Under the pieces are notes generated by a model that saw nothing but the letters and a program-made list of their open reading frames with translations, did not search any database and had not been told where the DNA came from. Shown here piece after piece: positions 11,733-42,318 of a stretch of 64,000 bases of DNA. The translations under genes were made by a program, and so were the position numbers. The DNA is taken from positions 104,622 to 168,621 of the forward strand of contig SLTJ01000024.1 of NCBI GenBank assembly GCA_004347685.1, read 5' to 3'. The stretch's first letter is position 1. The number at the start of each line of letters is the position of its first letter. The DNA comes from Clostridia bacterium. GTDB taxonomy: Bacteria > Bacillota > DSM-521 > Neomoorellales > SLTJ01.

Positions 11733-13703
11733 CTACTCTCCGTGCAGCTCGGCATACCCTTCTGTGTTCACCCTTTCGAGCCTGGCCCCCGCTTTAAGCA
11801 GGACACCGGGGTAAGCCCTATCGGCCCGGATATACTTGCCCTTCGGCACCTGGACCGTGGTGGCGCTTTCGGCCGGGCTTCCCAGTTCCCTGGCCAGCAC
11901 GTTGCCCTGGGCGACGATATGCCCGCCCCGGAACACCCCCGGGGAGCCGGCGATGACCACGTCGCCGCCGGCCATAATACTGCAGTTGTACGCCCCCTTA
12001 CCACTGATGGTAACTTTACCGCTGGCCTGAAGGGTCGAGTTCTGGGCGTATACCACTGTTATGGAACTGGCCGTCTCGGAGTGAATCGCCACCTGGCCGG
12101 ATAGCCCCTGAGCTTCCTGGTTCCAGCCCTCCACCATTTCCTGCAGGTCTTCCAAACGCTTGATTTGCAGTGGGTTCAGGCCGTCAAGTTGCCGGTACAG
12201 CCGCCCGGTGAGCTGGTACAGCTTTTCAACTTCTACCTCCACCTCCTCGCGCTGAAACTGCTTCAAGGCACCGCCCAGTTCGTGCAGGGCCTTGCCCAGA
12301 TTGGGGTACCTGCTTTCCATGATGGCCTTTACCAGCACACCTTCACCCCGGATCTCCACCTGCACATTTTCCTTCAAGCCGGGGCTCTGCCGCGCCAGGT
12401 ACAGGGTACGCAACAGGCCCTCCAGGTCGCGGGAAACTACGGAAATGGCGTTTACCAGCCCCTGGGCGGCGATGGCCGTGCCGCCAGCCTTCAGGATCGA
12501 GCCGAGCACGTTGTGGCCGACGAAGATATTACCTCCCGCGGTCAGCTCGGCGTTAGCCACAAAACCGGAAACCTGAATATGGCCCCCGGCCTTAATGGAC
12601 ATGCCGTCAAGGACGTCGCCCTGAATCATTACGTCCCCCCGGAAATCTATTTTGCCCGTGTGAGCATCTACCTGGCCAGTGAGGGTATATAACGGGAGCA
12701 CGGTGACCAGGTTCCCTTCCCGGGTGGGGCGCCCGGTGGCGGTGGCCACGGCTGTGTAGCCTTCGTCCCGGAGCTCGACGCCCTTGCCGGCCCGCAGGAC
12801 CATATCCCTGGGCGTGCCCGGGTTGATGACCTGGCCCAGGACGTTGGTCCCCGGCTTACCCTCCCGGGGCGGTATCTTGGTGGCCAACACCTCCCCCGGC
12901 TCCACACTGAGAACGAGGTGTTGCCCCAGGTAGTCGGTGCGCTCCTGAGAGGCCATTTCCTCCAGTTTCTTCTCAAAATGGTAAATGACCTGGGCGTCAA
13001 CCGGTGGCTCGGGTAATGTCCCCTGGGCCACCTGGATTTCCCTTCCGTGGTCCAGGGAAATGGCCATTTTCACCGCCTCCTGGTCAATGCCATGGACCAC
13101 GCCGTGCTCCCTGAGGATGTCCATGACCTGCTCAAAGGTCACGGCAAAGGACTGCCGCTCCACCAGCATCCCCTCCACCACCAGGTTGCTGGTGAAACCG
13201 GTATCCTTTATTTTGTACACTTCGCGGTCCTGGAACGTGACGCTTACGAAGGCCCGAAACTTGTCCGGGGACACGGTGACGTTGACCTCAGCCCGTCCGG
13301 GAGTCTCATCTGCCGCCAGGGCCCAGCCCTCGGCCGAGGTTATGGGTGTGGGCGTGACGATTTCCTCTCCCTGGTACCAAATGTGAACATGCGGCCCCGG
13401 GGCTATGGTTGCGGGCCGGCCTGAACCTGCGGGCGGGATGACAATTAGCCCGCCGTCAACTATACCTGCCTGGCCGTCGCTGCTTTCTATACTTTCCGCA
13501 GCTCCGGCTCCGGCATCTTGCGGCGCCGGCGGCGTGACCCGGATACTGGCCGGCTGTGAGCCCAGGCCGAATACGCCCTGTCTCCCCGGGTCCAGCACTT
13601 CAATTTCCAGGAGTTCCCGTGATACGCCGAGGGCCTTTTCCGCCAGGGTTATGGCCTCTTCCACCGACTTACCGGTAAAAATTAGTGGGTTACTGGCTGC
13701 CAC
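11733..13703 (-). CDS. FapA-family protein (DUF342, flagellar assembly protein A)
   Basis: About 656 residues. An N-terminal Jag-N/KhpB-like domain (VEEAITLAEKALGVSRELLEIEVLDPGRQGVFGLG) precedes a FapA domain and a C-terminal repetitive beta-helix rich in GG-x-I-x-V units, with a helical insertion around residues 450-530. FapA-type proteins occur next to chemotaxis and flagellar genes in many anaerobes and are thought to be cytoplasmic; their molecular role is not settled. The frame opens at 13787, but GTG 13703 has AAGGGGGT 7 nt upstream and begins just before the Jag-N homology. It lies upstream of mcp-cheWAB in the same direction. Confidence 0.85.
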   Translation of the reverse strand: MAASNPLIFTGKSVEEAITLAEKALGVSRELLEIEVLDPGRQGVFGLGSQPASIRVTPPAPQDAGAGAAESIESSDGQAGIVDGGLIVIPPAGSGRPATIAPGPHVHIWYQGEEIVTPTPITSAEGWALAADETPGRAEVNVTVSPDKFRAFVSVTFQDREVYKIKDTGFTSNLVVEGMLVERQSFAVTFEQVMDILREHGVVHGIDQEAVKMAISLDHGREIQVAQGTLPEPPVDAQVIYHFEKKLEEMASQERTDYLGQHLVLSVEPGEVLATKIPPREGKPGTNVLGQVINPGTPRDMVLRAGKGVELRDEGYTAVATATGRPTREGNLVTVLPLYTLTGQVDAHTGKIDFRGDVMIQGDVLDGMSIKAGGHIQVSGFVANAELTAGGNIFVGHNVLGSILKAGGTAIAAQGLVNAISVVSRDLEGLLRTLYLARQSPGLKENVQVEIRGEGVLVKAIMESRYPNLGKALHELGGALKQFQREEVEVEVEKLYQLTGRLYRQLDGLNPLQIKRLEDLQEMVEGWNQEAQGLSGQVAIHSETASSITVVYAQNSTLQASGKVTISGKGAYNCSIMAGGDVVIAGSPGVFRGGHIVAQGNVLARELGSPAESATTVQVPKGKYIRADRAYPGVLLKAGARLERVNTEGYAELHGE

Positions 13704-13881
13704 CCTCGCCACCCCCTTAGAAAAAGAGCCTTCCCCACTTGCGGAGAGGCCTGTTGACCTCTGGCAGCCCGGCGGTCGTGGCATCAAGCTTTAGACCCGT
13801 GGCTTTGCGTCCTTGCCTTTCGACAAGTTTGCCTTTGGCAGGGGTGAAAGTGATCTTCAGTTATTCACTTCGACAAATTCC

Positions 13882-35324: not shown

Positions 35325-35545
35325 GGATCGGTATCCTGGCTCTGGTTCATCACTGCCTGCGCCTTCCCGTCCAGCACTCATATAAACAAAATCTTCCCGT
35401 TGCGGGAACCTGTCTCCGCACATACGGTACACGAGTGCAGGATAGTGGCCCTTGCAGGCAGCTCCCCCTTACAGTGGCGGGACCGCGCCGGATTCGCACC
35501 GGCTTCCCTCCCGGAGCCTCGCACTATGCAGTTTACATGCAGGTT
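35325..35545 (-). promoter_or_regulatory. Cobalamin (adenosylcobalamin) riboswitch aptamer
   Basis: Minus-strand RNA with the ordered conserved blocks GGGAAGCCGGTGCGAATCC, GGTCCCGCCACTGT followed by AAGGGGGAGC, then GGGAAGGCGCAGGC, and finally GATGAACCAGAGCCAGGATACC. Between the third and fourth blocks is an extended optional arm closed by GCACTC/GAGTGC. This is the B12-box class. Terminator and antiterminator follow, so control is by premature transcription termination when B12 is plentiful. It governs the cbiD-to-cobC operon. Confidence 0.95.
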
Positions 35546-40474: not shown

Positions 40475-42019
40475 TTACTTGGCGTACTCCACGGCCCTCA
40501 CTTCTCTGATAACAATTACTTTAATGTAGCCGGGGTACTCCAGGTCGTTTTCGATTTTCTGCACGATACCTTTGGCCAGCAAGGTGACGTCGGCGTCGTC
40601 AAGCTGGTCGGGCTTGACCATAATCCTGATCTCCCGGCCGGCCTGAATGGCAAAGGACTTTTCCACCCCGGCAAAGGAGTTGGCGATTTCCTCCAGCTTT
40701 TCCAGGCGCTTTAGATAGGCTTCTAAGGTCTCCCGCCTGGCTCCCGGCCGGGCGGCGGAAATGGCATCCGCGGCCTGCACCAGTGCCGCCTCTACGGTTT
40801 GCGGTTCCACGTCCCCATGGTGGGCGCTGATGGCGTGTACCACTGCCGGGCTTTCCCGGTACCGTTTTACCAACTCCACGCCTATGGCCACGTGCGGGCC
40901 CTCGACCTCGTGGTTGGTGGCCTTGCCGACGTCGTGCAGGAGTCCAGCCCTTTTGGCTACCTGCACATCCACCCCCAGTTCGGCGGCCATGGTTCCAGCC
41001 AGGGTGGCCACTTCCAGCGAATGCGCCAGGACATTCTGCCCGTAGCTGGTGCGGTACTTGAGCCGGCCCAGCAGCTTGATAAGTTCAGAGTGGATGCCAT
41101 GCAGTCCCAGCTCAAAAACGGCATGTTCGCCTTCCTCGAACATCTTCTGGTCCAATTCTTTCTGGGCCTTTTCCACCATTTCCTCGATTCGAGCCGGGTG
41201 GATACGGCCATCTACAATGAGCTTCTCCAGGGCCATGCGCGCCACTTCCCTCCGGATCGGATCAAACCCAGACAGGATTACGGCCTCTGGAGTATCATCA
41301 ATGATAAGATCTACCCCGGTCAGGGTTTCTAGAGCCCGGATGTTCCGCCCTTCCCGGCCGATTATCCGCCCCTTCATTTCGTCGCTGGGCAGCGGCACCA
41401 CGGAAACAGTGGTTTCAGCCACATAGTCGGCAGAGCAACGCTGAATGGCCTGGCTGATTATTTCCTTGGCCCGCTTGTCAGCTTCTTCCCGTAACCGGTT
41501 TTCGGCTTCTTTGAGCCTGATGGCTATTTCCCGTTTGTTTTCCTGCTCGACCCTGGCCAGGATAAACTCCCGGGCCATCTCGGATGAAAGGCCGGAAATC
41601 CGCTCCAGCTCAGTCAGTTCCTTTTCCTTCATTTTCTGCAGTTCCTCGTACTCACGCTGCAGCTCCTGTTCCTTATCCTGAAATCCGCTCTCGCGCCGTT
41701 CCAAGGATTCTGCTTTGCGGTCCAGCGCTTCCTCACGTTGCACCAGGCGTTTCTCCAGGCGCTGTATTTCATTGCGCCGTTCCCGTACCTCTTTTTCCCA
41801 GTCACTGCGCAGCCGGTGTACTTCTTCCTTGGCTTCCAGAAGCGCCTCCCGCTTCTGGGCCTCGGCCTCCTTCTGCGCCTCCTCGACTATTTTGGCAGCC
41901 TCTTGCTCGGCGGACGCTATCCGGGCCTCGGCCAGCAGTCTTCGCACTAGGTATCCAGCAGCAAATCCCGCTACTGCCAGTAGGACAGGCAACCAGACCG
42001 TAATCGAAATATGTTTCAC
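40475..42019 (-). CDS. rny: Ribonuclease Y
   Basis: Membrane-anchored endoribonuclease initiating mRNA decay in Gram-positives. 514 residues: N-terminal TM ([21 protein letters not shown]), long coiled coil to about 200, KH domain around 205-275 with [17 protein letters not shown], and an HD domain with [12 protein letters not shown] and GLLHDVGKA near residue 363. Complete. The GTG start lies behind GGGG. A promoter, a structured leader and a terminator precede it. Confidence 0.97.
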
Positions 42020-42051
42020 CCCCCATCTTTATATAGGGGCGAACCAACCCA

Positions 42052-42081
42052 TAAAAAGAAAAGCCGCGGTCCCGGCTTTTC
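42052..42081 (-). terminator. Strong intrinsic terminator upstream of rny
   Basis: Minus strand stem GAAAAGCCG / CGGCTTTTC (42073-42081 with 42058-42066; 6-nt loop) followed by TTTTTAT. It lies about 200 nt after a consensus promoter and 33 nt before rny, so it can attenuate rny or end a separate small RNA. Confidence 0.85.
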
Positions 42082-42283
42082 CCCACTAGTACCATTTGCG
42101 TAACAGGCCACCACCGTCCCTGTTACCGGGTGAGTATCGAACCAGATACACATAGCTCCTTGCCACCAGCCGCATCACCCGTTCTGGTACGCGGTTCCCC
42201 CGGACGAAGGGCTGCTGGTCTACCAACACTCACCTCGCTCTATATCAACCGGATGGTAACTAGCTTCAGGCCAGTTCTTCCCT
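42082..42283 (-). ncRNA. Unidentified structured RNA / leader between recX and rny
   Basis: The segment between the predicted start point and the terminator folds well by eye on the minus strand. P1: CTAGTTACCAT (rc of 42253-42263) with ATGGTACTAG (rc of 42086-42095), ten pairs with one bulge. P2: GGTGAGT (42228-42234) with ACTCACC (42129-42135). Hairpins: GTAACAG/CTGTTAC (42120-42126 / 42100-42106) and GTATC/GATAC. CCAGC/GCTGG and CCGC/GCGG lie inside P2. No convincing open reading frame. It matches no riboswitch class I can recall; 6S-like features are partial. Confidence 0.5.
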
Positions 42284-42289
42284 TCATTA

Positions 42290-42318
42290 ATTGTATTCTG
42301 CTGCTCAGGCTTTGTCAA
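42290..42318 (-). promoter_or_regulatory. SigA promoter of the rny leader
   Basis: Minus strand TTGACA (42313-42318), 17-nt spacer, TACAAT (42290-42295): a 6/6 and 5/6 match. It starts 5 bp after the recX stop codon. Confidence 0.8.

Follow-up and report, generated by a model that had tools for sequence, protein, structure and literature searches.

A candidate transcription attenuator in the leader of the RNase Y gene rny, recurrent in Bacillota

The minus strand of the window, by which we mean the whole stretch of 64,000 nucleotides analyzed here, carries recA (43845-42829), recX (42814-42323), a leader region and then rny, the gene for RNase Y (Table 1). RNase Y determines how long mRNAs persist, on a global scale, in many Gram-positive bacteria. 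The leader has a promoter of its own, formed by TTGACA (42318-42313), a 17-nucleotide spacer and TACAAT (42295-42290); it is the sole promoter-like site in 1.1 kb, where 0.3 would be expected, and with matches at 11 of 12 positions we consider the promoter named in the preliminary description to be real. The predicted leader RNA extends from 42284 to 42050 on the minus strand, about 235 nt, and ends in an intrinsic terminator. A simple terminator scan overlooked this hairpin (42080-42059), which was found by folding and from its sequence. The terminator expected ahead of rny is therefore present, but it is 36 nt away from the gene and just outside the interval 42082-42318 to which it had been assigned. 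Its 5′ arm, GCCGG (42076-42072), is at the same time the 3′ strand of an alternative helix, P0, discussed below.

The leader RNA folds with -89.2 kcal/mol (z = -2.1; 9 of 200 shuffled sequences fold equally well), compared to z = -0.96 for the opposite strand. This is moderately better than shuffled sequence and by itself modest evidence, so that the single sequence is insufficient to carry a claim. The fold predicts these helices of the earlier description: P1, which joins 42264-42253 to 42095-42085 by 11 pairs with one bulged U; P2, with seven pairs between 42234-42228 and 42135-42129; and the local hairpin 42126-42100. They fare differently in relatives. P1 is recognizable there, but the sequence of the internal hairpin that P2 closes (42129-42234) shows no conservation, P2 not being the feature that is kept, and the local hairpin is absent from most relatives compared. 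The earlier reading had also missed the alternative pairing of a 5′ strand with the terminator arm, which is weak in the window.

Table 1. Elements of the rny leader and its gene in the window.
Element	Position	Strand	Basis or remark
Sigma-70 promoter TTGACA-N17-TACAAT of the leader	42290..42318	-	11/12 matches; position shared by relatives
P0 5′ strand (putative antiterminator) CUGGCCU	42268..42274	-	pairing in nascent-RNA minimum free energy (MFE) fold; positional homologue of Moorella GAAACUAGG
P1 5′ strand GCUAGUUACCAU, homologue of conserved CUACCA	42253..42264	-	fold and relatives
Conserved motif GGUUGAUAUAGA (family GG(G)UU(U)n..AUAUAGAU)	42239..42250	-	motif enrichment in relatives
Internal hairpin with GGUGAGU...ACUCACC (P2) at its base	42129..42234	-	fold; variable interior of the family
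Local hairpin GUAACAGG...CCUGUUAC, insertion ahead of P1 3′ strand	42100..42126	-	fold
P1 3′ strand AUGGUACUAGU	42085..42095	-	fold
Intrinsic terminator hairpin AAAAGCCGGGACCGCGGCUUUU	42059..42080	-	fold; homologue of CCGAGUUUC.ACUCGG
Terminator U-tract CUUUUUAUG	42050..42058	-	sequence
rny (RNase Y), putative controlled gene	40475..42019	-	as listed; likely start AUU 42010-42008

Covariance searches against Rfam gave no family above its gathering threshold in the window, in 20 relatives or in one Moorella-type relative, and at relaxed thresholds the matches were noise far below threshold (e.g. Thr_leader, 16.7 of 55 bits). The earlier statement that no known riboswitch signature fits thus holds. 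6S RNA (RF00013), an obvious candidate at first as a free-standing structured RNA of about 190 nt, has no match at the locus; the only match in the genome lies on another contig (C10:27852-28028, 79.6 bits). Elsewhere in the window, on the minus strand, there are a c-di-GMP-I-GGC riboswitch (13759-13842, 77.1 bits) at the 5′ end of a long open reading frame on the same strand (11733-13787) and a cobalamin riboswitch (35330-35508, 68.9 bits, model positions 46-168 matched).

Searches for homologues of the window at the DNA level yielded nothing convincing beyond a 31-base similarity in the terminator, and the family was therefore traced through rny synteny. With the RNase Y protein as anchor, we collected 61 relatives, then 299 genomes of the phylum, and added about 120 further upstream regions; in total, about 150 rny upstream regions from more than 100 Bacillota families were compared. 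A strict TTGACA-N17/18-TANWAT promoter is found in 142 of 150 regions (0.1 in shuffled sequences) and an intrinsic terminator within the leader in 127 of 150 (6.8 in shuffled sequences). As in the window, nearly all relatives thus have a promoter upstream of both leader and gene, and most have a terminator between the two. The distance from the -10 box to rny has a median of 233 nt and most leaders measure 93 to 540 nt, with compact versions of about 110-125 nt (L031). Among named genomes, the rny-proximal terminator is present in Moorella, Anaerosalibacter, Syntrophomonas and some Peptococcaceae; none was found near rny in the sampled leaders of Bacillus, Paenibacillus, Lachnospiraceae and Clostridium. 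The terminator hairpin usually reads CCGAGUUnn..CUCGG. Across the upstream regions L004-L153 the CCGAGUU..CUCGG sequence is conserved far beyond what a hairpin needs, and it is kept even where promoter and terminator are only about 20-30 nt apart (L033, L090, L127).

The P1 strands, CUACCA and UGGUAG, are recognizable in many leaders, and P0 stacks on this helix. Column covariation in a MAFFT alignment of 23 excised leaders supports P1 weakly, because some 3′ strands are misaligned. A covariance model of the family matched 24 of 41 genomes at E ≤ 0.01, with all matches upstream of rny but one, in G007:C7. This match, the sole one away from rny in the 41 genomes, lies at about 1175-1270 of L234 (G007:C7:61774-61869, E = 7e-4) and may be no more than a similar terminator. 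The family model, R1, was built without the window and misses it (best E = 1.1 in 401 bases, no match in the whole 64 kb); the variable interior had been removed from R1, and true members are split for this reason. We consider the leader in the window a probable member of the family of rny leaders on the basis of synteny, the promoter, the 5′ half, over which it can be aligned with L015 and other relatives, the conserved motif and P1.

Most leaders contain, near their 5′ end, a strand complementary to the 5′ arm and loop of the terminator. In Moorella, the resulting helix P0 is formed by GAAACUAGG and CCGAGUUUC. In L064 and L072 the pairing is kept with changed sequence (AGUAGCCC/GGGCUACU), L096 combines the same 5′ strand, AGUAGCCC, with GGGCUGCU, and further versions are CUGCCCUGG/CCAGGGUAG in L137 and GCGUGAA/UUCACGC in L118. 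In permutation tests on sets thinned to dissimilar 5′ regions, the pairing of a leader's own 5′ region with its own terminator arm was better than cross-species pairing (z = -5.2, -4.7 and -4.0 for n = 64, 50 and 36), scores that residual relatedness in the thinned sets could inflate; the controls were flat (internal windows +1.3, terminator 3′ arm -0.8). The best complement of the terminator arm falls within the first 25 nt in 67 of 108 leaders, where 18 were expected. When the nascent RNA is ended at the terminator arm, its MFE fold contains P0 in 77 of 108 leaders, against 28.5 with shuffled upstream sequence, and at full length the terminator is present in the MFE fold of 84 of 108. The two states are close in energy in most leaders, with a median of +2.0 kcal/mol in favor of the terminator and 52 of 86 leaders within 4 kcal/mol. 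Column covariation for P0 was not significant in the Moorella-like group (the same 23 leaders), since P0 is nearly invariant there, and some leaders have no clear P0 (L036-L038, L054, L058). For the family, the comparisons nevertheless point to an antiterminator that is maintained in evolution and excludes the terminator.

The copy in the window is a weaker case. Its P0 consists of CUGGC/GCCGG and CU/GG, i.e. 5+2 base pairs, and is present in the MFE fold of the nascent RNA, with 7 pairs in the antiterminator against 8 in the terminator. Its energy is not better than that of shuffled sequences (z = -0.39), and the terminator state is favored by 10 kcal/mol. L031 and L028, from the same taxonomic family as the source of the window, have compact leaders with a stronger P0 and 9 antiterminator pairs each.

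A second conserved element, GG(G)UU(U)..AUAUAGAU, directly follows the P1 5′ strand at about +30 to +60 and is strongly enriched. Between +25 and +65, AU-rich forms of the motif are present in 66 of 86 leaders, where 15.2 would be expected, and ATAGAT itself in 30 of the 86, against an expected 2.1. Over the following 40 nt the enrichment declines (24 of 73 against 11.8), and further on there is none. As judged by inspection, pairing is all that is kept on the strand opposite the motif, which hints at a site recognized or cleaved while single-stranded more than at a two-sided aptamer.

The start of rny also appears unusual. We inspected 30 close loci (the window at 42010-42008 on the minus strand, and loci from L004-L033, L154, L155, L161, L180 and L199). 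In 29 of these, the 20 nt that follow the very strong Shine-Dalgarno sequence (GGAGGTGA) contain no AUG, GUG or UUG, and 28 have an in-frame AUU, AUC or AUA at a distance of 11-14 nt from the first base of that sequence. This putative start codon comes directly after an in-frame stop codon in L015 and L028. In the window, the GUG listed as the start (42019) overlaps the Shine-Dalgarno sequence, and the AUU given in Table 1 is the likely start codon. Start calls over 149 loci gave 76 AUU, 16 AUC, 15 AUA and 33 canonical codons, the rest being other, a count that is softer because the transmembrane start of RNase Y is rich in isoleucine codons. In E. coli, infC and pcnB are known to start at AUU, with discrimination by IF3 (PMC9410913); a literature search for AUU starts and RNase Y returned nothing on rny. 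The AUU, AUC or AUA start may possibly act as a translational brake of the IF3 type on RNase Y.

Taken together, we think it likely that the rny transcript begins with this region as its leader and that the leader acts as a transcription attenuator. The preliminary description had offered this as one option, and it is now well supported by the recurrence at rny in dozens of families and by the covarying antiterminator. At the level of sequence, the case appears firm for the family and moderate for the copy in the window, because the P0 of the latter is short and not better than chance and model R1 is blind to it. With riboswitch and T-box platforms, the known attenuator leaders of Bacillota, the rny leaders share a promoter, a structured leader and mutually exclusive antiterminator and terminator directly before the gene. 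They differ in having no known sensor domain, in preceding rny, in placing the antiterminator strand close to the 5′ terminus, stacked on P1, and in the sequence conservation of the terminator itself (CCGAGUU). We found no rny attenuator in the literature searched (structured RNAs, attenuation, autoregulation of RNase Y; a 2017 survey of 224 motifs was outside its scope), nor an Rfam entry, and the rny leader would appear to be a new RNA family of the attenuator-leader type.

Promoter, terminator, the covariation of the latter with the 5′ strand, the motif and the specificity for rny come directly from sequence comparison and its statistics; from these we infer real termination, regulation of the fold and its input. 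RNA polymerase would start at the leader promoter and first make the 5′ strand (GAAACUAGG-like; CUGGCCU in the window), followed by the P1 5′ strand, the GGUU..AUAUAGA motif, the variable interior and the P1 3′ strand. P1 would then bring the 5′ strand beside the emerging 5′ arm of the terminator. Where P0 holds, the terminator could not fold and rny would be transcribed; where the terminator folds, transcription would stop just before rny. For the input, our preferred guess is RNase Y itself, ahead of a metabolite or another RNA-binding protein: in negative feedback, it would bind or cut the AU-rich motif at about +30 to +60 and thereby remove or disturb the antiterminator strand. RNase Y heads the list of candidates, since the B. 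subtilis enzyme autoregulates its production and cleaves its own 5′ UTR, most strongly within the first 50 nt (Korobeinikova et al. 2023, PMC10303841), the zone that corresponds to the position of the conserved AU-rich motif. The B. subtilis gene further resembles the leaders studied here in its long 5′ UTR, its strong Shine-Dalgarno sequence and a sensitive, AU-rich stretch within those 50 nt, but there control is exerted by cleaving the completed mRNA, and the description includes no terminator (PMC10303841). The 5′ UTR of E. coli rne, through which RNase E is autoregulated (PMC10303841), is likewise the structured 5′ UTR of a main decay endonuclease; there, control is post-transcriptional via a bound stem-loop, and no attenuation is involved.

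A more specific version, which we put forward tentatively and regard as doubtful, has RNase Y or a partner nuclease acting on the AUAUAGAU motif co-transcriptionally, with the AUU/AUC start tying synthesis to IF3. A cut or binding event while the interior is being made would detach the 5′ antiterminator strand and let the terminator form, so that a surplus of nuclease would be read during transcription; the conserved start codon behind the very strong Shine-Dalgarno sequence would be the second brake. It is less probable that the GGGUU..AUAUAGAU region, P1 and P2 form an aptamer for a metabolite that sets the balance of P0 and terminator. The fixed position of the motif next to P1, a GGG/CCC helix in many leaders and an expression platform resembling that of riboswitches would suit such a sensor, but the conservation appears one-sided, without a conserved partner strand or second loop in the interior (by inspection), versions of about 110-125 nt exist and no Rfam class fits.

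Ranked behind this, and improbable in our view, is an independent small RNA that ends at the terminator, while constitutive read-through or a second promoter supplies the rny transcript. A promoter, a stable fold and a terminator do predict a discrete RNA of about 220-235 nt, and the length of the leaders is highly variable. In Moorella-type genomes, however, the terminator ends 9-19 nt upstream of rny, which leaves another promoter no room, so that rny would be expressible by read-through only; furthermore, covariation between 5′ strand and terminator arm is what a cis-acting switch would show, and the family model matches essentially only upstream of rny. The least likely reading is that the terminator merely serves to stop transcripts of recA-recX, and that the leader is a structured 5′ UTR, made constitutively, whose main role is post-transcriptional, through cleavage by RNase Y. 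This reading draws on the cleavage in B. subtilis (PMC10303841) and the zone in which the motif lies, but a plain recA terminator would have no need to follow the rny promoter or to covary, in its 5′ arm, with the 5′ strand of the transcript, and the terminator here does both.

In the literature searched, B. subtilis is the one species in which the control of RNase Y itself has been elucidated, and there it proceeds via mRNA cleavage. If the attenuator proposed here is real, its presence in dozens of Bacillota families would give the decay machinery a further control point, at the level of transcription, and, together with the possible AUU/AUC start, the synthesis of RNase Y may be restrained at two levels.
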